Assembly (NCBI GenBank): GCA_021732045.1
Contig: JAKFWK010000002.1
Span: 434,001-498,000, forward strand
Direction of reading: 5' to 3'
DNA length: 64,000 nt
From: Sulfurimonas sp.
GTDB lineage: Bacteria > Campylobacterota > Campylobacteria > Campylobacterales > Sulfurimonadaceae
The position numbers and the translations under genes were made by a program. Of this stretch, positions 5,130-21,514 are shown piece by piece; position 1 is the stretch's first letter; each line of letters opens with the position of its first letter. The notes below the pieces were generated by a model, which was not told the DNA's origin, ran no database searches, and was given only the letters and a program-made list of their open reading frames with translations.

Positions 5130-5882
5130 ATGAAAAAGATTATTTTTGTTGCTATCATCAATACTGCTATATTGACTTCAACGGCAATATCGGCAGAATC
5201 ATCAATGGGAGATATGAAAGAAAAAGCTGTTAAAGCTGCAATAGAAAAAGCTGAAGGAGGAGATGCTAGTAGTCAGTTTGCCTTGGGTGGTTTTTACTAT
5301 CATGGAATAGTAACAAAACAGGACTACTCTAAAGCCATATTTTGGTTCGACAAAGCAGCCAAGCAGGGTCACGATAAAGCGGAGTTTAATCTGGGCTGTA
5401 TGTATTATGATGGAAAAGGAACACCAAAAGATTTTGTAAAGGCTTTTGATTTATTTAAAAAATCAGCGGAACAAGGCGATGCTAAAGCTCAACTCTATAT
5501 GGCAGACATGTATTACAACGGGAATGGCACAAAACAAGATTATCAAAAATCATTTTATTGGTATAAAAAAACAGCAGATAGTGGTTATCCAAAAGCACAG
5601 CATGAAGTTGCAAAAATGTACCGTGCTGGACTAGGAACAAACAAAGATATGGCTAAGGCAAAAGAGTATTTAAACAAAGCGTCTAAACAAAATTGCGGTG
5701 ATGCACAGTATGACCTCGGTAAAATGTATCTAGTTGGTGATGGAGTAGAAAAAAATGCTGAGGAAGCAAAAGTACTTATGCAAAACGCTTATCTAAATGG
5801 AAACAAAGATGCTAAAATAATTTTAGATGAGAACAAACAAGAGACACTTCCGACATACGAAATTAAACAGTTGCCACAGTGA
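5130..5882 (+). CDS. Periplasmic Sel1-repeat protein
   Basis: This 250-residue protein has a signal peptide (MKKIIFVAIINTAILTS, cleavage likely after AISA). It then has about five Sel1-like repeats of roughly 36 residues from residue 44 onward, recognisable by repeated A-x2-LG/Y-x-G-GT-K/QDY-KA patterns. Cysteines are few (CMYYDG and KQNCGD), whereas Helicobacter Hcp proteins have a disulfide in each repeat. Sel1 repeats form alpha-alpha superhelices that bind other proteins. The ATG is preceded by AAGGAG at 5119-5124. No partner is apparent, and the gene stands alone before a strong bidirectional terminator. Confidence 0.8.
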   Translation: MKKIIFVAIINTAILTSTAISAESSMGDMKEKAVKAAIEKAEGGDASSQFALGGFYYHGIVTKQDYSKAIFWFDKAAKQGHDKAEFNLGCMYYDGKGTPKDFVKAFDLFKKSAEQGDAKAQLYMADMYYNGNGTKQDYQKSFYWYKKTADSGYPKAQHEVAKMYRAGLGTNKDMAKAKEYLNKASKQNCGDAQYDLGKMYLVGDGVEKNAEEAKVLMQNAYLNGNKDAKIILDENKQETLPTYEIKQLPQ

Positions 5883-5941: not shown

Positions 5942-6229
5942 CTATTTTAAACCTGCAATATACTCAGAAACTGCTTTAACATCATCAGCTGAAAGAGATG
6001 CTACCTGTGGTGCCATCATACCTTTCTTAGCTCCACCAAAACTTCCATCTTTGTAACCATTCAATTTTTTCTCAATTGAAGCCGCATCTCCTGAAAGAGC
6101 AACACCTGATATCGCTGTATTTTTACCATCTTTACCATGACAACTACCACATTTTGCATAGATAGCTGCGCCATCAGCAGCAAATAGTGTAGCTGCAGCT
6201 ACAGCAACCCCAAGTATTATTTTTTTCAT
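5942..6229 (-). CDS. Monoheme cytochrome c553
   Basis: This 95-residue class I cytochrome c has a signal peptide (first ~19 residues, ending LFAADG), one heme site C27-GS-C30-H31 and a probable axial methionine at M71 or M72 in GMMAPQ. It ends with the ADDVKAVSEYIAGL helix usual for this fold. Small c553 proteins shuttle electrons in the periplasm between the bc1 complex and terminal oxidases or other enzymes. The gene is monocistronic, bounded by the terminator above, with a good Shine-Dalgarno AAGGAG upstream of the ATG on the minus strand. Confidence 0.92.
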   Translation of the reverse strand: MKKIILGVAVAAATLFAADGAAIYAKCGSCHGKDGKNTAISGVALSGDAASIEKKLNGYKDGSFGGAKKGMMAPQVASLSADDVKAVSEYIAGLK

Positions 6230-6491: not shown

Positions 6492-6953
6492 ATGAAACTT
6501 AAAATATTATTAGTTATATTTACTAGTACAGCAACATTATCAATGGCAGATGGAGCATCTGTATTTAAGCGTTGTATGGTGTGTCACGGAGAACATGGAG
6601 AGAAAAAATCTCTTGGTGTAAGCGAGATTATTGCTGGATGGAAAGAGGAAAAAATTATTGAAAAACTAAAAGCATATAAAGCCAACAAACTAAATCAATA
6701 TGGCTTCAGTAGCATGATGAGTGGTCAAGCAGTAAAGCTAAGTGATGCTGATATAAAAGATGTTGCAAGCTATATCTCAACACTAACACCACCTCAACCA
6801 CCCGTAGATGAAAATGCGTATAGTGACGAAGTTTTAACACCTGAACAAATTGAGTATAAAAACTTTATGCGTGACTATTTTATTGCCAATCCACAGTATG
6901 GAACAATCATAGAAGCAACAAAACTGTGGGAAGAGAAGAAACTTAAAAAATAG
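6492..6953 (+). CDS. Monoheme cytochrome c with C-terminal extension
   Basis: This 153-residue protein has a signal peptide (cleavage after SMA), a heme site C28-MV-C31-H32 and a class I cytochrome c core. A methionine in FSSMMSGQ is the likely sixth ligand, followed by the ADIKDVASYIS helix. After a proline-rich linker (TPPQPPVDE) there is a charged helical tail of about 45 residues that is absent from the c553 next door. The tail may dock the protein to a partner. It is divergent from the c553 gene and convergent with the CcsBA gene. Its electron-transfer partner is unknown. Confidence 0.85.
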   Translation: MKLKILLVIFTSTATLSMADGASVFKRCMVCHGEHGEKKSLGVSEIIAGWKEEKIIEKLKAYKANKLNQYGFSSMMSGQAVKLSDADIKDVASYISTLTPPQPPVDENAYSDEVLTPEQIEYKNFMRDYFIANPQYGTIIEATKLWEEKKLKK

Positions 6954-7033: not shown

Positions 7034-10000
7034 CTACCCTTCTGCTGTGTTTGGATTTTTCAGACTTCCCGAAACTGCTTTACGATTTCTAGAGGCTAAA
7101 AGAATCAACAACAGCACTGTAGCCACCGCATAATAAACCCAAGTCGGCATAGGCACTGGATCACCAGCCGCATAAGAGTGTAATCCAGATAGATAATAAT
7201 TAACCCCAAAATAAGTCATAATTACCGAACTATAAGCAACAACAGATGCCACCGTAAAGTTAAAGACTGAATTCAACTTCGGTATAAAACGCAAGTGAAC
7301 TACAGTAGCATAAACAAGAATCGTAACCAATGCCCATGTCTCTTTTGGATCCCATCCCCAATAACGACCCCATGACTCATTTGCCCATACTCCACCAATG
7401 AAATTCCCAAGAGTAACAAGCGAGAGCCCAATAATCATTGCCATTTCACTGATTCTTGTTGCCTCTCGGATACTGATAATGGTTTGTCGTTTTGTATTTT
7501 CATTTTTAACGCGGTCAATCATAATGAAAAGCACAAGCGATATAAGCCCAAGCAGTGCGCTTAGTCCCAAAAAGCCGTAACTAGCAGTAATAACAGACAC
7601 ATGGATTGATAGCCAGTATGATTTAAGTACCGGAACAAGATTTGTTATTTGTGGGTCTAACCATGTTAAATGAGCAACAAAAAGAGCAACTCCAGATAGA
7701 ATTCCTGTTGATGCAATTGCAAATTCTGATTGTCTTGCAAACATAATTCCCGCTAAAATAATTGTCCACGCAATATAAATCATTGACTCATATCCATCAC
7801 TCCACGGCGCATGCCCTGAAACATACCACCGTAAACCTAGATTTGCTGTGTGAGCAATAAACCCAATTATTAAAACTCCAAGAACAATCTTTTGCACTTT
7901 CTCTAAATTCAAAGTAGGCTTGAAAAGACGAACAAAAATAAGTATTAAAAGAGTTAGACCTGCAAAAAGATATACAGGAATCAATCTCTCAAAAATAGAT
8001 GCTTTGTTATAAAGCAACTCTGCATTAACTCGTAGCTCAGAAGGATAAATTGTCGCTCCATTTAACTTTTGAAAGCCGATTATCATCTTAGTTGCATCAC
8101 TAAAAGTTTTCCAATTCCCCTGCTCTATCCCTTCATTGATTCCAGTATAGTTTAGTTGGAGAATTTGTCTAATTTTTTGAGAATCCTCTGGGGAAAATGC
8201 TTTAAGTGCATTGCTAGGGCTATGCCATGTGTTTGCCTTATCTCCAGCGAGAGGGAAAATTCGCATAAAATCACCAGAATATACGCTATATGCAATATTT
8301 AACTTCTCATCTAGTTTAATCAGCTCTTTATCAAACTCATCTCGTTCAGCAGGTCGTTTTGTAATGGATGCCTGAACAGCATCTCCAAGCTTGTACACAC
8401 CAGCTGGATCTAAAACATCATTAAATGCGATATATTTTTTCTCATCTTCAATCCCAAGCATTGCTTTGATTTTTGAGTGTCTAACTTTAATCATTGCAAT
8501 TTTTTGCCAAAGCACTGGTTTAGATGCCATACCAAGGATTATCTGATTTGCAGATAATCCCATAATAGTTGTTTGTCCAGAGAGTTTATTTACTATGTCA
8601 ATAGCAATAGAGTCTATCGGCTTAATCCGTCCACCCATATCTTGCATTAAAATCGTACCAAACTCTTCAGCAGACGCATAATCTACTTTTTTTACTGTTT
8701 GTAAGGCAGTAGAGAGATCTGCTGCTTGTTCTTTTTGGTACTCAGCGTATGCAAATGCCGGTTGAGCCATAAACAATCCCGCCAAAAACACCAATCCTAT
8801 CATCACAGAAGGTGTAGACCGGTCATAACGAGTACGAGCTAATTTTCCAAATCTACTATTAGGGTTGAAAAAATTCATAAATAGTCCTAGTGCCAATAAT
8901 ATATATCCGACATAAGTTGGTATTTTTCCTGGGTCACGGTTTACAGAGAGAACTGTTCCCATCTCATCTTGATCAAACGATGATTGAAAAAATTTAAAAC
9001 CACCGTGCTCTAAAGGGTTATTCATAAAAATCCTAAAACTTTCGTTTATATTAGCTTTCTTATCAATCAAGTGAACATGACTCTCATATGATGATGGGCT
9101 CATTGATCCTGGATATTTGTCCATTATAAAATCATCAAGCTTAATAGAAAATGGTAGCTCTATCTGTTTAGCTCCCCACTCAAGAGAGACATCAACATCT
9201 CCTAAACGAAAATTCTCTGTAAATCCTTTAAAGCGTTTTCCTTGCCCCATTAGAGCAACTTCACGCTTCTGTCCATCTAACTCCGCCTCAACAATAAGAG
9301 CAGAGAGATTTTCACCGTTTGTATTCATATCCATCTTGAGCGAAGCGCGATACTCATCTTCAGACATAACCTTGATTGAACCATGAGAGAGAACTGATTT
9401 AGTTGCTATTTGAATACCATTAACGGTATATAAACGGCGCGCTTCAAATTCTCCTTCATTTCCAGCAATCACACTTCCAGAGAGCTTATCTTCCATTCTT
9501 AGCCAATCAACATTGCTGTTTGAGACAAATGAAAATTTACCATCTTTTTCAGAGATACTTATATAGAATCGCTCTACATCTGGGGCTTTATCAAAATAGA
9601 TAGCTATTGGTCCTACATCAACAAACTCGCCTTTAGATAAAAAGAACTTCTCAGGTCCGCTTGGAGCTGGAATCACAAACATTACAACCGCTTTTCCAGC
9701 AGGATCTTCAACTGCTGTTTTAGCTGCTTTTTTGATAAACTGCTTAAACTTAACTGTTATCGCCTTACCACCAACATCCAAATGTTCATTCAGCTCGCCA
9801 TCTTTTAACCCTGCCGCATAGACTGCTTTTTCAGCATGATATTTTTGTGTACCGTGAGTTGCGTCAATCTGTAAAAAAGCCTCGCTTGAGAGCATACGAT
9901 TTTCTGTATCTCCTTCACGAATATGCATAACTCCTTCGTATCCAAAATAGCGAGTTATACCAGAGCCAATTAAGATTATTAAAAATGCCACATGAAAAAT

Positions 10001-10249
10001 AAAAGTTGGTAGTTTTTTAAGTGTAAACATACGAAAGCGGATGATATTTGCAAAGATTCCAACTCCAAGCATAATTTGAAGAAGTTCAAACCATTTGGCA
10101 CCATAAACGAGAGCCCATGAAGTCTCTGTTCCATGGTCATTCTCTATAAATGTTGCAACACCGCTTGCAATACCAAATATTAGTAGCAGTGCCACCATAA
10201 ACGGCATTGATACCAAAAATGATCCTATTTTTTTAAGTTGATTCGCCAT
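7034..10249 (-). CDS. Fused cytochrome c maturation protein CcsBA (ResB-CcsA, System II heme lyase)
   Basis: This protein of about 1071 residues fuses ResB/CcsB (N-terminal membrane helices, then a large periplasmic domain) with CcsA (C-terminal helices). It contains the WWD heme-handling motif in the span WGRYWGWDPKETW near residues 956-975 and the flanking transmembrane helices. System II exports heme and attaches it to CXXCH sites in the periplasm. I chose the ATG at 10249 over the one 72 nt upstream because AGGGAA precedes it and the hydrophobic helix starts properly after MANQLKKIG. It is the last gene of the long minus-strand cytochrome cluster. In Wolinella, separate CcsBA isoenzymes serve particular heme motifs, so this copy may be specialised for the neighbouring cytochromes. 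Confidence 0.92.
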   Translation of the reverse strand: MANQLKKIGSFLVSMPFMVALLLIFGIASGVATFIENDHGTETSWALVYGAKWFELLQIMLGVGIFANIIRFRMFTLKKLPTFIFHVAFLIILIGSGITRYFGYEGVMHIREGDTENRMLSSEAFLQIDATHGTQKYHAEKAVYAAGLKDGELNEHLDVGGKAITVKFKQFIKKAAKTAVEDPAGKAVVMFVIPAPSGPEKFFLSKGEFVDVGPIAIYFDKAPDVERFYISISEKDGKFSFVSNSNVDWLRMEDKLSGSVIAGNEGEFEARRLYTVNGIQIATKSVLSHGSIKVMSEDEYRASLKMDMNTNGENLSALIVEAELDGQKREVALMGQGKRFKGFTENFRLGDVDVSLEWGAKQIELPFSIKLDDFIMDKYPGSMSPSSYESHVHLIDKKANINESFRIFMNNPLEHGGFKFFQSSFDQDEMGTVLSVNRDPGKIPTYVGYILLALGLFMNFFNPNSRFGKLARTRYDRSTPSVMIGLVFLAGLFMAQPAFAYAEYQKEQAADLSTALQTVKKVDYASAEEFGTILMQDMGGRIKPIDSIAIDIVNKLSGQTTIMGLSANQIILGMASKPVLWQKIAMIKVRHSKIKAMLGIEDEKKYIAFNDVLDPAGVYKLGDAVQASITKRPAERDEFDKELIKLDEKLNIAYSVYSGDFMRIFPLAGDKANTWHSPSNALKAFSPEDSQKIRQILQLNYTGINEGIEQGNWKTFSDATKMIIGFQKLNGATIYPSELRVNAELLYNKASIFERLIPVYLFAGLTLLILIFVRLFKPTLNLEKVQKIVLGVLIIGFIAHTANLGLRWYVSGHAPWSDGYESMIYIAWTIILAGIMFARQSEFAIASTGILSGVALFVAHLTWLDPQITNLVPVLKSYWLSIHVSVITASYGFLGLSALLGLISLVLFIMIDRVKNENTKRQTIISIREATRISEMAMIIGLSLVTLGNFIGGVWANESWGRYWGWDPKETWALVTILVYATVVHLRFIPKLNSVFNFTVASVVAYSSVIMTYFGVNYYLSGLHSYAAGDPVPMPTWVYYAVATVLLLILLASRNRKAVSGSLKNPNTAEG

Positions 10250-10368: not shown

Positions 10369-10863
10369 TTATTTTTTGGCTTTTTCCAGAGGTGTACTTT
10401 TTTCGTTAATAACTTTAACATCATTAATAATCCATCGCTTTTGATGAGGGTACAATGTGTATTTCATCTGATATACAACCTGTGTTGTCGGCATTGCATC
10501 TTTTTTATTTTCTGCATCATAATAATCATAGCTCCACTCCTCATATGTTCTAACCATACTTGCATTATTATCAACTCGAATCTCTTCAAATTTAAGTTTA
10601 TTTAGTTTGGCGCGCATATAGAGATTACTATCTTGCCATGAGTGAATCCACGCATATGTTTTAGTAACAATTTTTTTAGTTGCTAAGGGTTCCAGTGTTG
10701 CAGTTTTTCCTGTTCTTGCTGATTCTATTAGCGCTTGGTTATACCGAACAACCGTCTCTTTTATTCCATCCTCTTTTTCTGCCCCAAGCATAACTGCTGG
10801 AGAGAAGAACACAAGAGCAACTACTACTAAATAACACTTCATGCGATTATGGATAGACATCAT
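10369..10863 (-). CDS. Exported protein of unknown function (possible NTF2-like/IMS-type fold)
   Basis: This 164-residue protein has an N-terminal signal sequence (hydrophobic stretch at about residues 10-25, ending LGAEK). The mature part has a helical start (IKETVVRYNQALIESAR) and a sheet-like second half with TYEEWSYDYYD and a conserved-looking RWIINDVKV end. This resembles small cone-shaped NTF2/IMS domains. It has no cysteine suited to heme binding. The start ATG at 10863 has an excellent AGGAGGAG site upstream and overlaps the end of the multiheme cytochrome gene by 17 nt, so the two are coupled. It is likely an accessory of the electron-transfer locus. Function unknown. Confidence 0.7.
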   Translation of the reverse strand: MMSIHNRMKCYLVVVALVFFSPAVMLGAEKEDGIKETVVRYNQALIESARTGKTATLEPLATKKIVTKTYAWIHSWQDSNLYMRAKLNKLKFEEIRVDNNASMVRTYEEWSYDYYDAENKKDAMPTTQVVYQMKYTLYPHQKRWIINDVKVINEKSTPLEKAKK

Positions 10864-12934
10864 ACGCTCCTCCTACTGCTGTTCCATGACAGCTACATGT
10901 GGTCGTGTCATTGGTCCAATGGTTTCCTTTTCCTCTATTTGTCGTTACATAATTAGCTGCCCCTAGAGCACGAAACCCTTTCATTTTTGCATTGCCGTTA
11001 AAATTATAGGGATGTGGCATCACAGCATAGGCCATCAGACGAGATATTTTTGAACCATGTGGAATACCTGCATGACAGTTAACACAAAGCATATTATTAA
11101 ATCTAGTACGATCAGATTTAAATACATGCACTTGAACAGCTTCAGTTCTATGACAATTTTGACAGAAAAGATCAGGATTATCTACTGTAGTATCATCAAT
11201 ACCCCATAGCTGACCGTTTGGTTTATATGGCCAGTAGTTACCGCGTCCCTTGAGCATATACTTGTAACTCGAACCGTGTGGGCCTCGTGGGTCGGATGTC
11301 TGCTCATCAGCTCCATGACAGTCGGAGCAGTACATTGTGTTATTTCCAGGATTATTTGACCATGGTGTTTTCAAATATGCACTTGTCAAAGAATCCGCAT
11401 ACCGCCCCTCGGCGGCAGGATTTTTTGCTGCATTTCCACCATAAATTTTCATCGCCTCATGTGACATAACTATCGGATGAGCCGATTTATTCTTCGGATT
11501 AAACTCCCATGCCTGATCAGTTGCTGGCTCTCCTGTTTTTGTTATGGTCTGAGAAGATACTGGTGTAGCAGAACTACCAAGTGCCCATTGAGAGTGACAT
11601 TTTAAACAGACTTGATACTCATAGGTTGCACTCTCTAGCGTAGTAAACGAAGTTGGTTGAGTCCATCCGGTAGCTGGCCATGTAGGTTCAACTCCAATCG
11701 CCCCTCTTAGTGGACCTGATTTGGATATAAGATTTGTTGGTGCTGATGGGTACATAGTGTTTACCCCATCCGGAGGATCAATATGACTTCCAGCTTTTGC
11801 CTGATGTGGGTTATGGCAATCTGTACACTCAGCATGTTTATTTGTATTCCAAGTTATAGCTCCTCCACCATCACTCACCACGCCAGTGCCATATAAAACA
11901 TCAAGATTACTGTGTTGTCCAGAAATCAAATCTGTAGGGTGCGAGTACATTCTTTGAAGTGATGTCTGAATATCTTTTGCTCCACCAGTTCCATGACACG
12001 GGACAGTTGAAGTTGTGCCACTACCTGCTCCTTGAAAACAGGTATTTTCTTCAACTTTGCGCAACAGATATGGCTTCCCTTCTCCATTGTGTGGTTTATG
12101 ACAGTTTACACACCCAAGTGAAGAAACAGTGCTTGTCTCATACGCTGCATTAACGGTTGCATCAGTATAACTATTTGTTACGGTAGCATGAGCCCCAGTT
12201 GCCCAGTTTGCTTTATCATGACATGAAGTACAAGTACCATATACATTAGCCCCATGACTTCCTCCAGCTGAGTAACGAAGAAACTTTTTAGTTTCTGTAT
12301 GAGGATCATGGCAAGAGGAACACTCTACATACTGCTTACCACTATAAGTGTATAGTTTAATCGCGGCTCCTGGCGTTACTAAAAGCTCTATTCCTCTAGT
12401 TCCACTGCCAAAGTTTTTAGTCACGGTGTGGTTATATTCAATTCCAACCGGATGGTGACCTCTTAAATCAGTCCCAACATAGCCAGCTGCCGATGAGAGC
12501 ATTGTTCCATCAGGGTTAACACCACTCATAGCTATTTGAGTACCTCCGAGTAGCGTACCACGAACCAAATAGACAGATCCAGCCGCAACAGTGCCATCGT
12601 GACAGCTCAAGCATTGACGAGAAAGTGTTCCTGGTGTTCCAACTGTATTTCCAAGTGATGCAGGAGTTGGATAGTTCATCCGTCTCATGTAGTCACTGTT
12701 ATACATAGTGTATGAAGATGCTGGCATACTACGATTCCAAAGTGGTGTTCCAGTCTGAGCACTATGTGGAATATGGCAAAAAACACAAACTTCCGGCTCG
12801 CTTGTTGCTTTGATTGTTCCAGGACCCGCAGTTGACATATTGTGCTTAGTGTTGACAACTCCTCCATTAGCATTGTCTAAAGATAGTAAGATGATGGCAA
12901 TAGTAAGTAGAGTGATATTAAATATATTCTTCAT
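10847..12934 (-). CDS. Large multiheme c-type cytochrome (10 CXXCH plus unusual heme sites)
   Basis: This 695-residue exported cytochrome has a signal peptide ending near residue 24. CXXCH sites begin at C50, 108, 205, 235, 275, 370, 443, 536, 591 and 617. A further candidate, C299-x13-C313-H314, has a 13-residue insertion, and the C-terminus has C680-S-C682-H683, one residue short of a normal site. The first ~240 residues parallel the separate tetraheme cytochrome downstream of 18.6 kb (CVFCHIPH, GTDLR-x-HP, CSSCHDPH-x-FLR). Many non-heme histidines (for example in IPH, DPH, KPH, NPH) suit bis-His ligation. There is no membrane anchor, so it is periplasmic or secreted. Its ATG overlaps the upstream NHL gene stop by 4 nt (ATGA). 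It probably forms part of an electron conduit across or beyond the outer membrane. Confidence 0.88.
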   Translation of the reverse strand: MKNIFNITLLTIAIILLSLDNANGGVVNTKHNMSTAGPGTIKATSEPEVCVFCHIPHSAQTGTPLWNRSMPASSYTMYNSDYMRRMNYPTPASLGNTVGTPGTLSRQCLSCHDGTVAAGSVYLVRGTLLGGTQIAMSGVNPDGTMLSSAAGYVGTDLRGHHPVGIEYNHTVTKNFGSGTRGIELLVTPGAAIKLYTYSGKQYVECSSCHDPHTETKKFLRYSAGGSHGANVYGTCTSCHDKANWATGAHATVTNSYTDATVNAAYETSTVSSLGCVNCHKPHNGEGKPYLLRKVEENTCFQGAGSGTTSTVPCHGTGGAKDIQTSLQRMYSHPTDLISGQHSNLDVLYGTGVVSDGGGAITWNTNKHAECTDCHNPHQAKAGSHIDPPDGVNTMYPSAPTNLISKSGPLRGAIGVEPTWPATGWTQPTSFTTLESATYEYQVCLKCHSQWALGSSATPVSSQTITKTGEPATDQAWEFNPKNKSAHPIVMSHEAMKIYGGNAAKNPAAEGRYADSLTSAYLKTPWSNNPGNNTMYCSDCHGADEQTSDPRGPHGSSYKYMLKGRGNYWPYKPNGQLWGIDDTTVDNPDLFCQNCHRTEAVQVHVFKSDRTRFNNMLCVNCHAGIPHGSKISRLMAYAVMPHPYNFNGNAKMKGFRALGAANYVTTNRGKGNHWTNDTTTCSCHGTAVGGAYDVYP

Positions 12935-13959
12935 GGTAACTCCACATTTTCAGGATTTGGAAGTTTTTTCAACTTCTGAACTCGCATATTATAAAAATCA
13001 GCTACATATAGGCTACCATTGGTGTCAAATGCGATATCTTTAGGCGAGGAAAACTCGCCTTTTTCTGCTCCAAAACTTCCTAAGGATAACAACAGTTCTC
13101 CTTTTTGATTAAAGATTTGAACAGCATGAAAAAGAGAATCAGCTACATAAATATTGAGGTCATCATCAAGAGCGATACCTCGTGGACTTCCAAAATTTCC
13201 GATATTATCGCCAAGCTTGCCAAATGTACGGATAAACTTTCCATCTTTATCTAAAATCACAACACGATGATTCATCGAATCGGAAACATACAGATTGTAA
13301 TTTTTATCTAAAGCCAAATATGTTGGGCGATTAAACTCTCCATCTCCAGAGCCTTCTGTACCAATCGATGTTATAAATTTTCCCTCAAGTGAAAAGACTA
13401 AAATAGTCCCAGCAACGGTGTCTGATATATAGATTCTGTTTAAGTTGTTATTTATTGCCATACCTGTTGGACGAGTAATTTTTACCTTATCTCCTCCAAT
13501 TGTGTATAAAAACTTACCTTTTTTATCAAAAACAATAACTCTCTCCAACACCGAATCAGAGAGATAAATATTTCCTTTGTTGTCAGTAATAACATCCACA
13601 GGGGAGACAAGTCTTGTATCATTAAACCCCTCAATCACCTTCATTTCATTTTCAATTGGGTCAAATATAAATAGAGCTTGATTCCCCCCATCAGCAACAT
13701 ACAGCTTGCCACTCTCATCAACATGAATCCCAAACGGGGCAGCTAAAATTTTTTGCTCATTACCAGCTAAAAAATCCCATATTTTTCCCCAAAATCCTCG
13801 TTTTATATTTAAATCTTCACTCTTTGTTATGCTACCTACATACTCAAATCTAGCTGGATCAGGTGCGGATGGCCAGACAATTCTCTCCTGCTCAACTGCA
13901 TACAACGAAGAAATTGTGAGACCAACCAATACCGTCTGTATAAAAAGTTTTTTTGTCAT
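12931..13959 (-). CDS. Exported NHL-repeat beta-propeller protein
   Basis: This protein has about 342 residues with a signal peptide MTKKLFIQTVLVGLTISSLYA. I chose this ATG at 13959 because AAGGAG precedes it, while an upstream in-frame ATG (14091) lies inside the barrel gene and has no signal sequence. The mature protein is a run of about six NHL blades, each with a pattern like P-x-G/D-I-A-D-x-x-G-N-I/L-Y-V-A/S-D. NHL propellers are protein-interaction platforms. A paralogue with a lipoprotein signal lies three genes upstream. NHL proteins, a prolyl isomerase and a barrel accompany multiheme cytochrome genes in Geobacter-type extracellular electron-transfer loci, so a structural or export role is likely. 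Confidence 0.87.
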   Translation of the reverse strand: MTKKLFIQTVLVGLTISSLYAVEQERIVWPSAPDPARFEYVGSITKSEDLNIKRGFWGKIWDFLAGNEQKILAAPFGIHVDESGKLYVADGGNQALFIFDPIENEMKVIEGFNDTRLVSPVDVITDNKGNIYLSDSVLERVIVFDKKGKFLYTIGGDKVKITRPTGMAINNNLNRIYISDTVAGTILVFSLEGKFITSIGTEGSGDGEFNRPTYLALDKNYNLYVSDSMNHRVVILDKDGKFIRTFGKLGDNIGNFGSPRGIALDDDLNIYVADSLFHAVQIFNQKGELLLSLGSFGAEKGEFSSPKDIAFDTNGSLYVADFYNMRVQKLKKLPNPENVELP

Positions 13960-13981
13960 TGACGCTCCTTTGCTTGATGTT

Positions 13982-15739
13982 TCAAAATGATCTAGATATC
14001 TTGAAAAAAACTGAACTTTGAGTACTTTCTTGATTGACTCCACTTGCGCCCGATGAGGCTCCACTAGTTTGATAAAAATATCTTGTTCCAAAAGACATTA
14101 TAATTTTTCTTAATGTATAATTTAAACCTATATAAGCTGAGTAATTTGTTAAGTCACTTACAGAGTCTTGTGATGCACTAAGGTTAGAGTTAAAAAGTAG
14201 TGTCCTAAAAAATTTATATGTAAAACTGCCCTCAGCATGAGGGAAAATACGAACTAGTTTCTCCTGCTGGTTATACTGTGACTCACTATAAGTTACTCCA
14301 CCACCAAGAGATATCTTTCCATCATATCCAACATCATACCAATATCTTAAGTTATTATCAACAGTAACTGACTCTAAATCCATCTGGATAGCGCCAGTTG
14401 TTGGATCTGTATAGTACCTACCAGTTTCACTGGTATAATATCCCGATAGTGTATTATAAAAATTATTACTTATCATGGTAGAGAGCATCATATTGGCCGA
14501 AATACGCTTCGTGCTATCATTGAGAGTTGATTCAGAATTATAATATGATAAATTCCCAGAGAGGCTTGAGCTGATTGCCTCAACTCTTTTTGAGGCACCA
14601 AAACTGGCAGTATAGGAGTAACTATTTCTATCTGGGGCTGTTATATTTATATCAGAGACAGCTTTGTTTTTCTCAACTTTACCTATAACATCAAGACCAG
14701 CAGTCAACACAAGATTATCCTCTAGGGCCTTAGTATAATGCCCACCCAACATCGCCGTTCCCATAGTCATATCAGAATAATCACCAGCAACACGATAAAG
14801 CGATACATTTTGAGTTGTTGTAAACTCCGGAGTTACCATATATGAAGAGTTTCCAAAAAGCATAACGGTATCACTGCTCTTACCGCCAGAAGATATTGTA
14901 CTAGCTGTTGCACCAACACTTGCCATATACTTGGCAGTTGGATTCCAGTTTATATTTACACTTCCCATCATATTTTTCATGTCACTATAACTACTATCCA
15001 TATAGGTAAGATATGAGTCAATGCGGAGTGTTTTATCTACATTCCAAGAGCCATTTATTCTTATATCTTGTGCTTGATCACTCCACTCTTGTTTGGATTG
15101 AAAATAGCGATCATCTCGTAAATAGTCACGAGTTCGATTACTATAAACAGCAGAGAATGTGCCATCATTAAATCTTTTATCAACAGAAAGTGTATAATTT
15201 TTGTTTTTACGAGTCTCATCTGCATTAGTCTCATCTCGTTGCATATCAGACGACTCGCCACTATACCTAAGATTGAAATATGGAAGTTCAACTGAACCAT
15301 TAACACCATATCTATCATCTGTTTGGTTATAGCTCATAGATGAACCAGCTTGAATGCTAGAATATGGATTTGATGTTTTTTCACCATAAAGTGAAAAAGG
15401 ATATTTTGTCGAGCGGATAAAATCAGTACTAACACGATAATTCATACTCTTATTTTTAGAATCATAAGATTGATCATTTGTTTTATTTGTGGTATCTGTC
15501 ACCATTAGTGATCCTTGCACCAAATAGCTCATCAAATTAGGATTATAAACATATCCTGTTTTTCCAAGAGTATAGTTTTGAATCATAGCCTCTTGTGATG
15601 ACTTATTGTTTACATCACTAGCTCTATTTTCTGTATATCCATACTCTAAATTTCCATAAAATCCATTTGACTCCGCTTGAAGTATAGTAAAAGAGGAGAT
15701 TAAAGCGATAATAGCCCGAGCAACCATATGTTTTTTCAT
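13982..15739 (-). CDS. Outer-membrane beta-barrel protein of the cytochrome cluster
   Basis: This 585-residue protein has a signal peptide (ending LQAES). The rest is alternating aromatic/hydrophobic and polar residues typical of amphipathic strands throughout, and it ends in KISRSF, where the terminal phenylalanine is the BAM recognition signature. Turns are rich in Asp, Asn and Ser. There is no cysteine at all, unlike MtrB-type sheaths with an N-terminal CXXC. It could be the pore through which a multiheme cytochrome or filament passes, comparable to the barrels in porin-cytochrome conduits. I recognise no specific family by sequence. The strand number was not counted. Confidence 0.8.
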   Translation of the reverse strand: MKKHMVARAIIALISSFTILQAESNGFYGNLEYGYTENRASDVNNKSSQEAMIQNYTLGKTGYVYNPNLMSYLVQGSLMVTDTTNKTNDQSYDSKNKSMNYRVSTDFIRSTKYPFSLYGEKTSNPYSSIQAGSSMSYNQTDDRYGVNGSVELPYFNLRYSGESSDMQRDETNADETRKNKNYTLSVDKRFNDGTFSAVYSNRTRDYLRDDRYFQSKQEWSDQAQDIRINGSWNVDKTLRIDSYLTYMDSSYSDMKNMMGSVNINWNPTAKYMASVGATASTISSGGKSSDTVMLFGNSSYMVTPEFTTTQNVSLYRVAGDYSDMTMGTAMLGGHYTKALEDNLVLTAGLDVIGKVEKNKAVSDINITAPDRNSYSYTASFGASKRVEAISSSLSGNLSYYNSESTLNDSTKRISANMMLSTMISNNFYNTLSGYYTSETGRYYTDPTTGAIQMDLESVTVDNNLRYWYDVGYDGKISLGGGVTYSESQYNQQEKLVRIFPHAEGSFTYKFFRTLLFNSNLSASQDSVSDLTNYSAYIGLNYTLRKIIMSFGTRYFYQTSGASSGASGVNQESTQSSVFFKISRSF

Positions 15740-15758
15740 AAATTGTTGCTCACATCAA

Positions 15759-16703
15759 CTATCTTTTAATCTTTGCCTGTTTTTTTAGAGACTCCAAAAG
15801 AGAGTCCATCTTCTCTTTCTCACGACTTGCAGTTAGCTCACCTCTAAGACTCTCTTTGACTTTTTCAAATGAAAGCTGAGCAGCTTCTTGTCGTCCGTTA
15901 AGATGAAAAATAAAACATCCCACATCAGTTTCAACAACAGTGCTCGTTTCTCCTTTTTTAAGAGCAAAAGCAACTTTTTCTGCCATAGCATTTTCTATTC
16001 TGCCCTTATGTATCATTCCCAAATTTCCGCCCTTAATACGGGTCATATCATTGGAGTATTTAGATGCAACAGTTGCAAAATTTTCACCTTTTTTAATACT
16101 TGCCATTGCCTCATCTATTCGCTTTTTGGCAATCTGACCTCCATTTTTTACCTCTGGATTATTACGAGTATAAATCATCTGAACATCAATCTTTTCAGGC
16201 TCTTTAAACTTATATTTATTTTTTTCATAATAGGCTTTAAGATCATCATCTGAAAAAGTTAGTTTAATTTTTTGCTCATAAAGCTTTCGGATAGACTCCT
16301 CTGTCTTTAACTCATTTTGAAACTCACTTAGTGGTATTTTAGCCTGAGCTAGAGCTTGTTGAAAATTTTTACGCCCTGAAAATCCACGAACAACCGCCTC
16401 TTCTGCCTCTGAAAGTTCTTTATCAGACACTAAGATTTGCTGTTTTTTAGCGTACTGAAAAAGTAGTTCTTTGTTTATAAGACTATCAACTGCTTTTTTT
16501 TCTAGCTCTTTGATTTTTTCATCATCAACATTAGCATGATAACTCGCCTGAGGAATCAAAGCGGTAACTTCACGATCAACTCGTTTTTTTAAAATTGGTA
16601 CACCATTTACTGTTGCAACTACATTATCAACTACTGCAAACAACTCTGAAGAAGTAAGCACAAACAACAAAGTAACAACAATTTTTTTAGCTAATCTATT
16701 CAT
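15759..16703 (-). CDS. Periplasmic parvulin-type peptidyl-prolyl isomerase (SurA/PpiC-like)
   Basis: This 314-residue protein has a signal peptide (ending ELFAV), a SurA-N-like chaperone domain (VVATVNGVPILKKRVDRE, residues ~30-160) and a single rotamase domain. The rotamase spans about residues 170-270, with the markers KKGENFATVASKYSND and GGNLGMIHKG and the later GETSTVVETDVGCFIFHL. A helical tail returns to the chaperone domain. It should assist folding of outer-membrane or secreted proteins. The ATG overlaps the stop of the upstream NHL lipoprotein gene by 4 nt. Its place between two NHL genes and a barrel gene suggests a dedicated folding factor for this locus. Confidence 0.88.
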   Translation of the reverse strand: MNRLAKKIVVTLLFVLTSSELFAVVDNVVATVNGVPILKKRVDREVTALIPQASYHANVDDEKIKELEKKAVDSLINKELLFQYAKKQQILVSDKELSEAEEAVVRGFSGRKNFQQALAQAKIPLSEFQNELKTEESIRKLYEQKIKLTFSDDDLKAYYEKNKYKFKEPEKIDVQMIYTRNNPEVKNGGQIAKKRIDEAMASIKKGENFATVASKYSNDMTRIKGGNLGMIHKGRIENAMAEKVAFALKKGETSTVVETDVGCFIFHLNGRQEAAQLSFEKVKESLRGELTASREKEKMDSLLESLKKQAKIKR

Positions 16704-17767
16704 CTTGGCTCCAAAAGTTTTTTATATTCATTTGGATGATTTTTCTTCCAAACTTCACTTATATATTGAAAGACTTGAACTTTTGAGTTAAATCCTTCTG
16801 TCGTATAGAGCCTATCCTCTTCATCACAATAAAGAGATGACGGTAGATGGAATGTTCCAGGGGTAGTACCGGCACCGCCAAAATAGAGGAGAAGCTCTCC
16901 TTTATCATTAAAAATTTGAACATTATTAAAAGCAGCATCTGCTGCATAAATATGACCCTCACTATCTACTGCAACGCCTTTTGGACGAGCAAACATGCCA
17001 GGCTTATCTCCAACTTTTCCGAACTTTGATAAAAATTTACCATTTTTATCAAAAATCTGAATTCTAAAATTCTGTGTATCCCCAACTATAAGATTCCCAT
17101 TTCGGCGGTCAATGCTAAGGTTTGTGGGATAGTTGAACTCACCATCTTCTATTCCCCGTTTTCCAATAGTCTGAACCATCACTCCATCTAAAGTATAAAC
17201 TTTAATATTATGTTGGAGTGTATCAGTTATATAAAGTAATCCAAGATCTCTATTTATAGCAATTCCAGTTGGCCGAGTAAATTCATCCTTTACACCAAAA
17301 ATTTTCTGAACAGAACCATTATCATCGTATGCGTAAACTTTTTTTAACTTCGCATCGGATACATAAGTAAGTCCCTTACCATCAAAAGCGATACTTACTG
17401 GTAGCCCTAGTTTACCTGATGGCTTATCTCCCAAAAAAGATACTTTTTTAGTAGCTCGATCAATAACAAAAACAACACCTTGCGCGGTATCAGTTGTAAA
17501 GATTTTTTCCTTATATGCAGCTACGCCGTAAGGTTTCACCATGCTCTTGGCCACTTTAGCGTCCTCAACACCTATAAAAGTATCAAGCGTGCTCTCTTGC
17601 TCAAAATCACGCTCTCCAGTATAAGTAGCAATATAAAAAAGTCTTGGTTCTTCCGGAAGCACCGGAACAACAAAGCCCTCTGTAATTTTCTCTTTTTGGG
17701 CAACACATCCAGTTGCTAAAATCAATGCCAAAAAAAGCATTGAATTATAAACCACCAACTTAATCAT
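16700..17767 (-). CDS. NHL-repeat beta-propeller lipoprotein
   Basis: This 355-residue protein has a lipoprotein signal: a hydrophobic segment ending LATGC, with C21 as the lipidated cysteine. Roughly six NHL blades follow, for example RPTGIAINRDLGLLYITDT and RPKGVAVDSEGHIYAADA. It is a clear paralogue of the NHL protein encoded at 12.9-14.0 kb, blade for blade. As a lipoprotein it is anchored to a membrane, probably the outer one. It may tether or assemble cytochromes or the barrel. It starts a tightly coupled set (NHL lipoprotein, isomerase, barrel, NHL protein, multiheme cytochrome) in which most junctions overlap or nearly touch. Confidence 0.87.
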   Translation of the reverse strand: MIKLVVYNSMLFLALILATGCVAQKEKITEGFVVPVLPEEPRLFYIATYTGERDFEQESTLDTFIGVEDAKVAKSMVKPYGVAAYKEKIFTTDTAQGVVFVIDRATKKVSFLGDKPSGKLGLPVSIAFDGKGLTYVSDAKLKKVYAYDDNGSVQKIFGVKDEFTRPTGIAINRDLGLLYITDTLQHNIKVYTLDGVMVQTIGKRGIEDGEFNYPTNLSIDRRNGNLIVGDTQNFRIQIFDKNGKFLSKFGKVGDKPGMFARPKGVAVDSEGHIYAADAAFNNVQIFNDKGELLLYFGGAGTTPGTFHLPSSLYCDEEDRLYTTEGFNSKVQVFQYISEVWKKNHPNEYKKLLEPR

Positions 17768-17868
17768 CTTTATCTCCTTACATTAATTTTCATAATAAAT
17801 AGAGTATACACAATTTCATAAGATAATGCCAATGATGTTTTACAATATAAGTATTATGGATAATTTTA

Positions 17869-17900
17869 GCAAACCCACCTCGGAAGAGGTGGATATTTGC
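17869..17900 (-). terminator. Hairpin after the tetraheme cytochrome gene
   Basis: A 7-bp GC-rich stem (17875-17881 with 17886-17892) and a 4-nt loop is extended by outer pairs gcaaa/tttgc. It lies 14 nt downstream of the tetraheme stop on the minus strand. The following sequence is only moderately T-rich, so it may be a terminator or an mRNA-stabilising 3' end. Confidence 0.6.
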
Positions 17901-17913
17901 TAGATGAAGAAGA

Positions 17914-18615
17914 TTATTTTGCGTGACAGCCTATACATAAAGCACTTCCTGTATTTGCAACACGAAGGAATGTTCCATTTGTTGCTTCATGGGGATCATG
18001 ACAACTACCGCACTCCACTTTGCTGTTTCTAAGAAGATTGGCGATAGTCGTTGCTCCAGCCCAACCAGTTAATGCTGTTGCAGTAGCTTTTAGCCCTGCT
18101 TTACTTGGATCATAAGTAATTGATACTGGATGATCATTTCTCAAATCTGTACCGATTGCTGTTACTCCAGCAGGCATTACAAACGCACTCCCAGCAGCCG
18201 TAGCACCAAACTTAACATTAGCTCCAAGAGCAACATACCCACCTGAGCCTGGTGCATTAACCATAGAGTTAATTGCACTAACACCATCGTGACAACTTAA
18301 ACATGCCATAGACGGGCTGTTTGGCGTTGCATCAGTTGCTGTTCCACCAATAGTAGTACCATACATTGTAAATACACCAGATGGAGTTGCTTTATTCCAT
18401 AATGGTGCGCCAACAAAAGCCGTGTTTGCGGCGTGAGGAGTATGACAATAAACACAAATCTCGTCATTATTATCCCCAGCATCAGACTTAATTGTTCCCG
18501 TACTAGTACCTGAAAGATTATGTTTTGTTGCCGTAATATTTGATGTTGCAAAAGCACTCGAACCCAATGCTACTATCACTGCGATAGATTGCACCACCCT
18601 TTTAAAGGTTACCAT
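17914..18615 (-). CDS. Secreted tetraheme c-type cytochrome, OmcE-like
   Basis: This 233-residue protein has a signal peptide (cleavage near AFA-TS) and four CXXCH sites starting at C54, C105, C202 and C227. The whole chain has exactly eight histidines: four proximal (H58, H109, H206, H231) and four others (H32, H61, H162, H209), just enough for bis-His ligation of four hemes. Size, heme number and the pattern KHN-L, CxxCHTPH, CLSCHDG, GTDL-NDHP, ECxSCHDPH, LCxxCH resemble Geobacter OmcE as I remember it, which polymerises into extracellular filaments. A strong AAGGGAGGTG ribosome site precedes the ATG, and hairpins flank the gene. Filament formation is inferred, not shown. Confidence 0.85.
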   Translation of the reverse strand: MVTFKRVVQSIAVIVALGSSAFATSNITATKHNLSGTSTGTIKSDAGDNNDEICVYCHTPHAANTAFVGAPLWNKATPSGVFTMYGTTIGGTATDATPNSPSMACLSCHDGVSAINSMVNAPGSGGYVALGANVKFGATAAGSAFVMPAGVTAIGTDLRNDHPVSITYDPSKAGLKATATALTGWAGATTIANLLRNSKVECGSCHDPHEATNGTFLRVANTGSALCIGCHAK

Positions 18616-18650
18616 AGTACACCTCCCTTAAACTTTGTGTACTTAAATTG
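18616..18650 (-). promoter_or_regulatory. Very strong ribosome binding site of the tetraheme cytochrome gene
   Basis: On the minus strand AAGGGAGGTG lies a few bases before the ATG at 18615, the most complete Shine-Dalgarno match among the cytochrome genes here. A TATACT hexamer at 18679-18684 (minus strand) could be the -10 box of a separate promoter in the 260-nt gap. Together these suggest the tetraheme protein is made in larger amounts than its neighbours (inference). Confidence 0.5.
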
Positions 18651-18756
18651 CAGTAGTGATATGCTTAATGTTTTATTAAGTATACAACTTTTTTTGTTAT
18701 AGGAGATATTAGTTTTTATAATAAAATATAAAAATATATAGTGTTGTTTTAGCACG

Positions 18757-18774
18757 CTCCCGTGGGAAAGGGAG
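18757..18774. repeat. Small GC-rich hairpin in the gap after the octaheme gene
   Basis: ctccc at 18757-18761 pairs with gggag at 18770-18774 in an otherwise A/T-rich gap. It lies about 100 nt after the octaheme cytochrome stop on the minus strand. There is no T-run after it, so it is at best a weak terminator or an RNA processing stem. Confidence 0.3.
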
Positions 18775-18875
18775 TTCTATTTATGAATGTAAATCAATGT
18801 GATAAATTAATTATAAAAAAAATAATGTTTTATTAGAAAATATTTTCTTTATATTATTACAATTATTACAATTAT

Positions 18876-19907
18876 TTATTTTTTGTGACAACGAACGCAT
18901 ACACTAAAAGCAGTTTTACCTTTTGAGCGTAGCAAAAATATCCCCTCCGACCCATGAGGATCATGACAACCTGAGCAAACTAACTCTCTTCCAGGACGAG
19001 CAGGATCTTGCACGCCTTTTGTTGGATGAGTGCTTCCTCTAACAAAACTACTTATAACATGAGCTCCAGTTGCTTTTTCAGAGTGACAAGTGGTGCACAG
19101 ATCCCAAATCGACTTGCGCAAAAAGAACTCTTGATTTGAGCCATGGGGATTATGGCATCTATTACATCTACTATCACGAACAGGTCCATGTTCTGATTTT
19201 TTTGCAAACCAAACATTTTTGATATTTTCATGGCAGCCAAAACAGCGATCCATAATTGGATCTGGAGTTGTATATTTTGATTTATCTTCTTTTGCATTAC
19301 TATACTCTCCCTTTTCTCCCGTATGGCACTCTGTACACATCCAGTTTAGAGCAGGAGCATGTCCTTTAGTTTGTGATACTAAATTTTTATGGCACTGATA
19401 GCAAGAGGAGTCTTCTGGATTCTCAACAATTTCACCTTTTTTACGCGGCTTGTCGCTCATAACATGGCAAGTTTTACAAAGTTGTTCATTTTTATCATTA
19501 TGAAGAAGATTTTTTTTAAATCCCGAAGGTTCATCTTGAAATCCAGGAGAAATCTCAGAGCGAAAATAGACAGAAATTGTTTTACTCTCTTTAACTTCCT
19601 TCTCTTTGTATGAAACAACGCTAAGAGGATTATCACCAAGATTTGCTTTTAGTGATTGACAATAGACCTGTTTGTTTGCTTTTATCTCGCGTTCAAACTG
19701 ATTTCCCTGCGCATCAGTGAAGACAACTCTGCTAATCTGAGGATCTGTAACTTTAACTACAATAGTTATTTCGCTCTCATCTATAACAGTTTTAGCAAGA
19801 GGACGGATAATTTCAAGTGTAGTAGCAGAAAGCGTAAGTGAGGTTAAATAAAAAAGTGAAAAAAATGTAAGAGGCACAAGCCTCTTACGGGTAGATAAGA
19901 GTTTCAT
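18876..19907 (-). CDS. Octaheme c-type cytochrome with N-terminal beta domain
   Basis: This 343-residue exported protein has a signal peptide (to about residue 28) and an N-terminal domain of about 110 residues without heme sites. That domain's strands (EITIVVKVTDPQISRVVF) suggest an immunoglobulin-like fold. Eight CXXCH sites follow, starting at C144, 169, 191, 222, 248, 271, 311 and 337, with several in the doubled CXXCH-NPHGS/DPHGS style. Its ATG immediately follows the TAG of the 12-heme gene with no gap, so the two are coupled. It is probably a periplasmic or outer-membrane-facing electron carrier of this locus. The first codons contain a terminator-like hairpin. Confidence 0.88.
   Translation of the reverse strand: MKLLSTRKRLVPLTFFSLFYLTSLTLSATTLEIIRPLAKTVIDESEITIVVKVTDPQISRVVFTDAQGNQFEREIKANKQVYCQSLKANLGDNPLSVVSYKEKEVKESKTISVYFRSEISPGFQDEPSGFKKNLLHNDKNEQLCKTCHVMSDKPRKKGEIVENPEDSSCYQCHKNLVSQTKGHAPALNWMCTECHTGEKGEYSNAKEDKSKYTTPDPIMDRCFGCHENIKNVWFAKKSEHGPVRDSRCNRCHNPHGSNQEFFLRKSIWDLCTTCHSEKATGAHVISSFVRGSTHPTKGVQDPARPGRELVCSGCHDPHGSEGIFLLRSKGKTAFSVCVRCHKK
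19859..19888 (-). terminator. Intrinsic-terminator-like hairpin inside the start of the octaheme gene
   Basis: On the minus strand a perfect 9-bp stem (19867-19875 with 19880-19888) and a 4-nt loop is followed directly by ATTTTTTTC. It covers about codons 7-17 of the octaheme cytochrome. It has every hallmark of a Rho-independent terminator yet lies in coding sequence, so it could give partial termination when translation is slow. Function inferred. Confidence 0.55.
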
Positions 19908-21128
19908 CTACTTGAGATTTTCTATAGGTTTTTTACGATCGTAATGGCGTCGTGCATGACACGCTGGAGCACACGATCCTCCAGTAGGAGTTTCAATGTA
20001 ACGAATTGGAAAATTAATCGCACCAAAACTTGTTTTTGTTCGCAAGTGGTGTGGATACTCTTTTGTTCCATGAAAATCATGACACGCTCTACAAGTACGA
20101 CCTTTATCTTTATTAACATGAATAAAGTGCATATTTTTATCTCCATTACGGAAATTTGTTGCCGTTGTTGTCATCTCATCTTGAATCTTTGCAGGCTCAT
20201 GACACTCAAAACAGATATAGTTTTTTTCATCAAACTTAGCATAGAATGTTTCTGGAAACGGTTTTTTTAACATTCTAAGATTATCTGAACCATGAGGATT
20301 GTGACACACAGCACAATCTCCCCACAAAATAGGTCCATGATGATCAGGATTGTCTTTTAAATGCTGATCCATATTTGTCAGCTTACTACCATCAGTTGTC
20401 ATTTTGCTGTTGTGGCATGATAAACATAGGTCTTTGCCTGTATCTTTAACCAACATTTTAGGAGTGTTTGTTCCATGAGGGTTGTGACACTCTAGACATT
20501 TCTTAGGTCGGTCTAATGCACCATGTTTATGCGTTACTTTTGCCAAATGCTCTTTCTTCTCTACATGGCACATAAGACACAAATCCTTATTGCCATCCGC
20601 TTTAAGTTGAAATTTAAAATTCTCTGTATGAGGATCATGACAGTTTGTGCACTGATCTTGCACTGGAGGATGAATATGCTTTGTTGTTTTCAAAAATACA
20701 CCTTTGTCTGCATGACAAGATGTGCAGAGTTGATTTATATTTGAGAAGCGAAGTAGCTTCATATTGTTAGATTCGTGTGGATCATGACAAGCAGTACAAG
20801 CACCTGCACCAACTGGACCATGTATAAATTTTTTGCTATCTTTTGCTTCATGGCACTGACTACAAAGGTCAGGCATATCCATCTTTAAGGCACCGCTTTT
20901 ACCATCTTTTTCTGTATGACAAAATGAGCAATCTTTATCTGCTTTTGCCATCTCATATGGTGGATGAACTACCTTTTTGGCACTTTTAAGATTTGGCTCA
21001 AAATCTGGGCGCTCTATTGGAGCAGCAACAACCTTAACTGGTTCACTTCCAGCTACTGCAAGTTCCGTAAACACAAACCCACTTGCTATCATAAGAACTA
21101 CTGCCAATTTTGTAATTTTTTTATACAT
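19908..21128 (-). CDS. Multiheme c-type cytochrome (11 CXXCH plus CX3CH)
   Basis: This 406-residue exported cytochrome has a signal peptide (ending AVAGS) and regular doubled CXXCH motifs. Sites start at C67, 89, 111, 135, 160, 184, 211, 235, 272, 306 and 346. The last candidate is C386-APA-C390-H391, with three rather than two residues between cysteines. Many sites are followed by DPH or NPH, giving distal histidine candidates. The hemes are about 25 residues apart throughout, as in elongated wire-like cytochromes. It has no anchor, so it is likely periplasmic and may pass electrons from the inner membrane to the outer-membrane part of the locus. It is the first large gene of the cluster. 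Confidence 0.9.
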   Translation of the reverse strand: MYKKITKLAVVLMIASGFVFTELAVAGSEPVKVVAAPIERPDFEPNLKSAKKVVHPPYEMAKADKDCSFCHTEKDGKSGALKMDMPDLCSQCHEAKDSKKFIHGPVGAGACTACHDPHESNNMKLLRFSNINQLCTSCHADKGVFLKTTKHIHPPVQDQCTNCHDPHTENFKFQLKADGNKDLCLMCHVEKKEHLAKVTHKHGALDRPKKCLECHNPHGTNTPKMLVKDTGKDLCLSCHNSKMTTDGSKLTNMDQHLKDNPDHHGPILWGDCAVCHNPHGSDNLRMLKKPFPETFYAKFDEKNYICFECHEPAKIQDEMTTTATNFRNGDKNMHFIHVNKDKGRTCRACHDFHGTKEYPHHLRTKTSFGAINFPIRYIETPTGGSCAPACHARRHYDRKKPIENLK

Positions 21129-21166
21129 ATCTCATGTTTTCCTTAATCTAAATTCTATCTAATCTA

Positions 21167-21514
21167 CTAAAAATCTGTACGCATAAATGCTTGGATCATA
21201 TATCGTGCCAATGAACGATACTCATCCTCATAAAGATTTCCTATCTTCATAAGCTGAGGGCGCATCATCCCATCTCTCTCTGGATAAACAATCGGCTGAC
21301 TTTGACCTTTTAGGTATGCAACAAGTTTATTTTCATTACCGCTATAACGAATCCCAATCATTCGAATAGATGGTCCAACAGTATCATTATCTTTTGCATG
21401 ACACATAGCGCAACCACGCTCACTAAAAATAGCGGAACCAGACTCACTGTTCACTCCTGCAAAAAGTGCAGTTCCATATACAAAAACAACTAATACAATA
21501 AATTTGTTAATCAT
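21167..21514 (-). CDS. Monoheme cytochrome c
   Basis: This 115-residue protein has a signal peptide (ending LFAGV) and one heme site, C35-AM-C38-H39. It has a GP-x-I segment after the heme (VGPSIRMIG) and a probable methionine ligand in DGMMRPQ. It ends in a helix (EYRSLARYMIQAF). It belongs to the class I family and lies just upstream of the multiheme cluster on the same strand, so it may be the first gene of the operon and donate electrons to it. A divergent promoter region separates it from the lipoprotein gene on the plus strand. Confidence 0.85.
   Translation of the reverse strand: MINKFIVLVVFVYGTALFAGVNSESGSAIFSERGCAMCHAKDNDTVGPSIRMIGIRYSGNENKLVAYLKGQSQPIVYPERDGMMRPQLMKIGNLYEDEYRSLARYMIQAFMRTDF

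Follow-up and report, generated by a model that had tools for sequence, protein, structure and literature searches.

A window of 64,000 nucleotides (nt) from the genome of a Sulfurimonas sp. (assembly GCA_021732045.1, contig JAKFWK010000002.1, positions 434,001 to 498,000) was found to contain a locus that probably encodes an OmcE-type extracellular cytochrome filament, together with its own parts for export, heme loading and an outer-membrane conduit. The case for this draws on homologies, the conservation of heme ligands, gene order and predicted RNA hairpins. The locus comprises 11 genes, all on the minus strand, spanning 21514 down to 7034; the host genome is 2.0 Mb in size. The original prediction, made from the letters of the window, had described a one-strand set of four multiheme cytochromes, two NHL propellers, an isomerase, a barrel, a monoheme cytochrome, a small protein and a heme lyase, all of which were found. 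It had also counted 36 CXXCH sites in the stretch from 5.9 to 21.5 kb; a recount over the locus genes plus two small cytochromes (5942-6229 and 6492-6953) gave the same number. As a DNA pattern, CXXCH matched 3 + 36 times on the two strands of the region (39 in total), whereas 100 dinucleotide-preserving shuffles yielded a mean of 1.4 matches and never more than 5, both strands together. The families detected with Pfam and NCBIfam were paired-CXXCH cytochromes, two NHL propellers, a SurA/PpiC isomerase and CcsBA.

The tetraheme cytochrome and its OmcE-type locus

The proposed filament subunit is a tetraheme cytochrome of 233 amino acids (aa; 17914-18615, minus strand). Its residues 12-233, with four CXXCH sites, aligned with residues 13-232 of OmcE (Protein Data Bank, PDB, entry 7tfs; E-value 1.6e-27), that is, the homology is full-length. 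It also matched 9yuq, a solved structure of 16 chains named ‘putative multiheme cytochrome c’ (1.4e-25). The closest named homologue among the matches listed came from a Sulfuricurvum metagenome-assembled genome (MAG; 83% identity). The protein has exactly eight histidines, four in CXXCH sites plus H32, H61, H162 and H209; all eight aligned with histidines of OmcE, and each was retained in 119 or 120 of the best 120 of 6116 homologues. In OmcE filaments, a histidine ligand is reported to be common to neighbouring subunits (PMC9473688, PMC12954529), and the helical rise of OmcE is given as 34 Å (PMC12954529). Since only eight histidines are present, as needed for four bis-histidine hemes, the ligand shared between subunits should be among them.

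Two Geobacter-like loci (L136 and L141), whose OmcE proteins are 65% and 60% identical to 7tfs, contain in one run ResB and CcsA (assigned by Pfam in L136), a 10-heme MtrA-like cytochrome, an octaheme cytochrome, an NHL protein, OmcE and a cysteine-poor protein of 796-806 aa. The window shares this core, the heme lyase and a large cysteine-poor protein included; its octaheme has a near full-length homologue in both loci (28-29% identity). This run fits gsu0615-0617 of G. sulfurreducens, reported as a predicted operon (PMC1829397), plus omcE (GSU0618), the GSU numbers being paired by order and the species represented by the Geobacter-like loci. The window adds a PpiC protein, a second NHL propeller, a cytochrome with a fused OmcE domain, a small protein and a monoheme cytochrome, and its ResB and CcsA are fused. 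BLAST found no similarity between its 585-aa barrel and the 796-806-aa proteins, which are likened to it by place and low cysteine content. The likeness to Geobacter filament-cytochrome loci suggested in the original prediction was supported. As the core is common to both Geobacter-like loci, the window locus is, by homology, almost certainly an OmcE-type locus with additions. Filament formation by the tetraheme is rated as likely.

A predicted RNA hairpin lies directly 3′ of the tetraheme gene (17868-17901, minus strand), and the first 90 nt of the gap behind this gene had a folding energy of -21.1 kcal/mol (z -4.3). The first 90 nt of the gaps between the tetraheme and NHL lipoprotein genes folded more stably than shuffles in all 12 loci tested, the window included (z -2.7 to -8.1); when two further gaps after extra tetrahemes were counted, 13 of 14 were stable, the exception being in L126, where the gap lies behind the first of its tetrahemes (z -0.1). 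The test excluded L018, L080 and the short gaps behind third paralogues. The spacing from tetraheme to NHL lipoprotein was 96-394 nt (787 nt as called in L080), and that between successive genes from the lipoprotein through the fused cytochrome was -20 to 63 nt. Hairpins of this kind would be in keeping with overproduction of the subunit.

A further, divergent OmcE paralogue was seen between the NHL lipoprotein and PpiC genes of Nitrosophilus alvini and two relatives (L125:8179-8943, L127:8992-9681 and L134:1623-2288). It forms its own well-supported branch in the tree of OmcE domains and is possibly a minor subunit. Elsewhere, at L075:3937-5287 (G000:C2, about 148 kb), a cytochrome with four hemes, OmcE-like in a stretch at its C-terminus, adjoins a DUF481 protein.

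The 695-aa cytochrome with a fused OmcE domain

The largest cytochrome of the locus (695 aa; 10847-12934, minus strand) starts with an OmcE domain (residues 13-239; 3e-25 to 7tfs) and carries about eight further hemes C-terminal to it; its sites comprise 10 CXXCH, a CX13CH and an oddly spaced C-terminal CH. In an alignment of 61 rows (the window protein and 60 of the 119 other matches listed), the ligands of the OmcE domain, including the N-terminal H31, were invariant in all rows, as were the columns C299, C313 and H314 that make up the CX13CH in the window; the spacing of the last CH varied, and it was missing in a few rows. A total of 1241 proteins matched this cytochrome, the named ones including those of Nitrosophilus alvini, Persephonella and Sulfurimonas. 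The fusion was present in 11 of 397 Campylobacterota genomes and in 6 of 68 genera, the host included; among these 11, G024 had fragments only, G245 had matches to the OmcE domain only, and the G293 gene was broken by a contig end.

In a tree of 63 OmcE domains, one branch separated the 27 fused from the 36 stand-alone domains (support 95/94; 94% of 200 bootstrap trees). The fused side held sequences from Campylobacterota, Persephonella, Nitrospirota, the class of a Desulfuromonadales MAG (G445) and one Bacteroidota MAG. Since a single branch divides the two kinds and the fused ones come from five sampled groups, subunit and fused partner are an old pair. Of 277 genomes in the class of G445, 161 have OmcE itself. 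In four loci from that class (L137-L140), three from Nitrospirota (L131-L133) and one from Bacteroidota (L130), OmcE occurs with a fused cytochrome and the run resembles that of the window: tetraheme, NHL protein, large cysteine-poor protein, second NHL protein and fusion cytochrome. As in the window, an MtrA-like cytochrome is nearby in L137-L140 and L130. Unlike the window, L132, L133, L137, L138 and L140 have an extra pentaheme, and in L130 the first NHL gene is ahead of the tetraheme. The fusion cytochromes of these eight loci are shorter (559-643 aa), the proteins in the place of the barrel, likened to it by position, have 590-682 aa, and no CcsBA match was present in the stretches read.

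The make-up of the 695-aa protein, with one OmcE domain and extra hemes in series behind it, would fit a position at the filament end. That it is an adaptor there is plausible, though the odds are somewhat against it. Put more generally, and just as tentatively, it might be a dedicated terminal protein of OmcE nanowires, old and spread over several phyla, the OmcE domain of which would join the last subunit by a swap of heme ligands while its C-terminal hemes would form the junction to an outer-membrane conduit or the contact of the tip with its target.

Predicted barrel, MtrA-like cytochrome and proposed electron route

The cysteine-free outer-membrane barrel (585 aa; 13982-15739, minus strand) was modelled by AlphaFold2 with 28 strands, a mean predicted local distance difference test score (pLDDT) of 85.6 and a predicted template-modelling (TM) score of 0.63. 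By standard barrel geometry, 28 predicted strands would give a width of about 49-52 Å between backbones. In Foldseek its first match was MtrB (6r2q_B; E 8.7e-10, TM 0.49/0.45), and many unrelated barrels ranked next. The 12-site cytochrome (406 aa; 19908-21128, minus strand), with 11 CXXCH and one CX3CH, resembles the DmsE/MtrA family (TIGR03508; E 8e-41, 140 bits, below the cut-off of 192.2) and the MtrA chain 6r2q_A (5e-18); its identity across Campylobacterota loci is 62-83%. PF22113, the domain II/IV family of MtrC/MtrF, was above the Pfam cut-off in both the 12-site and the 695-aa cytochromes; the NCBIfam OmcA/MtrC model was absent from the listed matches of the latter. The window locus resembles the MtrABC system of Shewanella (6r2q) in combining a DmsE/MtrA-like cytochrome with a large predicted barrel, but differs from it in that the barrel has no MtrB sequence match and superposes weakly, and in having an OmcE-type tetraheme and an OmcE fusion instead of a plain MtrC. 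The chances that barrel and 12-site cytochrome together form a conduit are about even.

These same matches speak for the strongest alternative, namely a porin-cytochrome conduit of the Mtr or Oet type whose surface cytochromes, the OmcE homologue included, would pass electrons to minerals or soluble acceptors without long filaments. OetABI-type conduits are reported from syntrophic sulfate reducers (PMC10553843), and the OetABI conduit and the operon described by Skennerton from partner bacteria of anaerobic methanotrophic archaea share with the window a beta propeller, a peptidyl-prolyl isomerase (PPIase), cytochromes and a porin conduit, the last as a candidate in the window (PMC10553843, PMC5539420). 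They differ from it in their 16- and 26-heme cytochromes and their partners of the OmcX/OmcS type, and the word OmcE does not occur in the main text of PMC10553843. Set against a conduit without filaments are the tetraheme, which resembles OmcE from end to end and retains all ligands, and the isolation of its gene by gaps and hairpins, as expected of a major subunit. The barrel, moreover, gave no match in Pfam, NCBIfam or PDB-sequence searches, a comparison in which Oet barrels had no part. This alternative is regarded as unlikely.

In a second cytochrome cluster of the genome (L074:6127-10839; G000:C1, about 758100-762850), a triheme comes after a NapC/NirT-type tetraheme (1e-29); the cluster also has a 507-aa MtrA-like cytochrome with 11 sites and two octahemes, paralogues of the 12-site and octaheme proteins of the locus. 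In G425, a similar set adjoins the OmcE locus (L134). This cluster could be a route from the quinones to the cell surface, with the inner-membrane step sitting outside the locus. Similar pairs of 12-site and octaheme cytochromes were also seen in Nitrospirota (L022-L026) and a Deferribacteres MAG (L027).

In the model proposed for an OmcE-type filament, filament formation, the positions of the proteins and each electron step with its direction are inferred. Electrons would come from the quinone pool by way of the NapC-type cluster and the octaheme. CcsBA would load the hemes. In the periplasm and at the outer membrane, PpiC and the two NHL propellers would help to fold, export or assemble the OmcE-like tetraheme. 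The 28-stranded barrel would cross the outer membrane, either as a sheath for the MtrA-like 12-site cytochrome (forming a conduit) or as an exit for cytochromes. The tetraheme would be overproduced from a cistron of its own, flanked by hairpins, and would polymerise outside the cell; as in OmcE, a histidine of each subunit would ligate a heme of the adjacent one. The 695-aa cytochrome would attach to one end of the filament via its OmcE domain, and its extra hemes would extend the electron path to the conduit or the target.

Companion genes, conservation and meaning of the locus

The first gene in the window, as in several relatives, encodes a monoheme cytochrome c (115 aa; 21167-21514, minus strand), an open reading frame (ORF) with one CXXCH, a Cytochrom_C match (Pfam, 3e-7) and a signal peptide recognized by eye. 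The octaheme cytochrome (343 aa; 18876-19907, minus strand) has an N-terminal part without heme and then eight CXXCH. Behind the tetraheme, on the same strand, lie the genes for the NHL propeller lipoprotein (355 aa; 16700-17767; NHL 1.5e-21; lipobox LATGC by eye) and the SurA/PpiC-type prolyl isomerase (314 aa; 15759-16703; Rotamase_3 2e-17, SurA_N_3 1.5e-14). The second NHL propeller (342 aa; 12931-13959; NHL 1.9e-32; signal peptide by eye) follows the barrel; its gene was taken to start at 13959, since the longest ORF would overlap the barrel gene. The small protein (164 aa; 10369-10863, minus strand) has an apparent signal peptide, judged by eye, and a weak NTF2-like match (PF25155, 0.0034, below the cut-off), and its gene adjoins that of the 695-aa cytochrome in related loci too. 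The heme lyase (7034-10249, minus strand; start probably at 10249) has ResB (2e-24) and CcsA (Cytochrom_C_asm, 4e-39) domains in a single protein, as a CcsBA cytochrome c synthase does; it is one of two matches in the genome, the second copy being 46% identical (G000:C1:500166-503270). Beyond the locus, the two small monoheme cytochromes c (5942-6229, minus strand; 6492-6953, plus strand) adjoin a Sel1-repeat protein (5130-5882).

The G. sulfurreducens osc (omcS-companion) operon encodes OscH, with a prolyl isomerase domain, and the propeller-like OscD. That operon combines OmcS-type cytochromes with proteins for folding (OscH), secretion (OscEFG) and morphology (OscD) (PMC13194489), and the window encodes analogous protein types. 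The subunits differ: that of the window is OmcE-like, that of the osc operon is the hexaheme OmcS, and OmcE and OmcS are reported to have no common sequence (PMC9473688).

The set is kept in related genomes in much the same order, as the original prediction had proposed to check. Among 14 loci, the complete order from monoheme to CcsBA was found in the window, L015 (a Sulfuricurvum MAG), L077, L128 and L080, in the last of which CcsBA is split over two frames; L018-L021 and L078 end at contig ends. In L125, L126 and L135 other genes are inserted between octaheme and tetraheme, and in L127 the 12-site and octaheme genes were not seen in the stretch read. The insert of L125 (2211-5147) holds sensor, response-regulator and kinase genes, a two-component system assigned by Pfam in this locus only, which likely regulate the locus; L126:15604-18558 and L135:9097-12036 hold genes of similar size. 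Nitrosophilus alvini and N. labii carry the locus; for Persephonella, at least the fused cytochrome was found. In 60 genomes searched, the barrel was found in 6, all within the genus, and the tetraheme in 8 (one a marginal case from another genus), the host being included in both counts. A barrel occurring without cytochromes would have told against the original prediction; the barrel was found in 5 of 36 congeners, beside cytochrome genes, and all 5 also have the tetraheme. Identity between the window and L015 (Sulfuricurvum MAG STC_37) ranged from 83% for the 12-site cytochrome through 67% for the octaheme and 49% for the tetraheme to 33% for the barrel, and in the OmcE-domain tree the window tetraheme was also close to Nitrospirota rows such as Dissulfurispira. 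These uneven identities and the position in the tree suggest gene exchange and fast evolution of the barrel.

Published work on Geobacter bears on the function of such a locus. An omcE mutant was reported to reduce 45% less U(VI), and OmcE had earlier been reported as necessary for insoluble Fe(III) (PMC1829397). Several points weigh against the proposed filament. OmcE was reported to be unnecessary for current and for the reduction of Fe(III) oxide, and its filaments, not recovered from the wild type, were suggested to be a mutant artefact (PMC11077965); a gsu0616 mutant was reported to reduce acceptors faster or better (PMC1829397); and the manganese-reducing S. marisnigri was reported not to grow on Fe oxides (PMC6589767). 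The set is patchy, the barrel being present in 6 of 37 genomes of the genus, the host included. The 695-aa type, PpiC and the second NHL protein are absent from the 20 kb read at L136 and L141, and G397 has a second fusion copy (L129:10594-12657) that lacks the other genes of the set and lies near a divergent PPIase and a cytochrome with 8 hemes. The AlphaFold model of the 695-aa protein was middling (pLDDT 73.5), with the OmcE domain as its weakest part, and a fold search with it gave no match. The role of the barrel is a proposal, given that it belongs to no sequence family in the searches above, and a filament, its conductivity and any phenotype are likewise putative for the window locus.

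Alternatively, the cells might make filaments for attachment, structure or electron storage and not for long-range respiration. This is improbable, since the adjacent heme lyase, the MtrA-like and octaheme cytochromes and the NapC-type cluster make an electron path the economical reading. Least probable is that the cytochromes are soluble enzymes of the periplasm acting on sulfur or nitrogen oxides (of the octaheme tetrathionate or nitrite reductase type), the case that the original prediction had named as fatal to it: many such enzymes exist in Campylobacterota, but none of the multiheme cytochromes of the locus reached the cut-off of a curated enzyme family in Pfam or NCBIfam (matches to NrfH, NapC/NirT, P460 and QrcA models were all below theirs), OmcE and MtrA headed the matches in the PDB, and the tetraheme accompanies the barrel in every congener that carries it. 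The interpretation as an electron-export or filament locus thus gained support from homology and gene context, while electron export and filament formation themselves stay at the level of a proposal.

Open-licence PubMed Central literature, a scope outside which most subscription papers lie, yielded no description of an OmcE-type locus in Campylobacterota or of a fused OmcE cytochrome. MnO2-dependent growth of a Sulfurimonas has been reported, with no genetic mechanism given (PMC6589767), and in a Sulfurimonas MAG the known conduits were reported to be incomplete and expressed mostly at high abundance of cable bacteria (PMC11748539). The window locus offers candidate genes for extracellular electron transfer in Campylobacterota; in this phylum, the route by which a Sulfurimonas reduces solid MnO2 is unexplained. 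The named carriers (Nitrosophilus alvini and N. labii, and Persephonella with the fused cytochrome) make the ideas of a filament and of an end protein testable. If the 695-aa type is indeed a terminal protein, OmcE-type wires with such a component would extend to sulfur- and hydrogen-oxidising autotrophs (Sulfurimonas, Nitrosophilus and probably Persephonella) that are not usually counted among the makers of nanowires.

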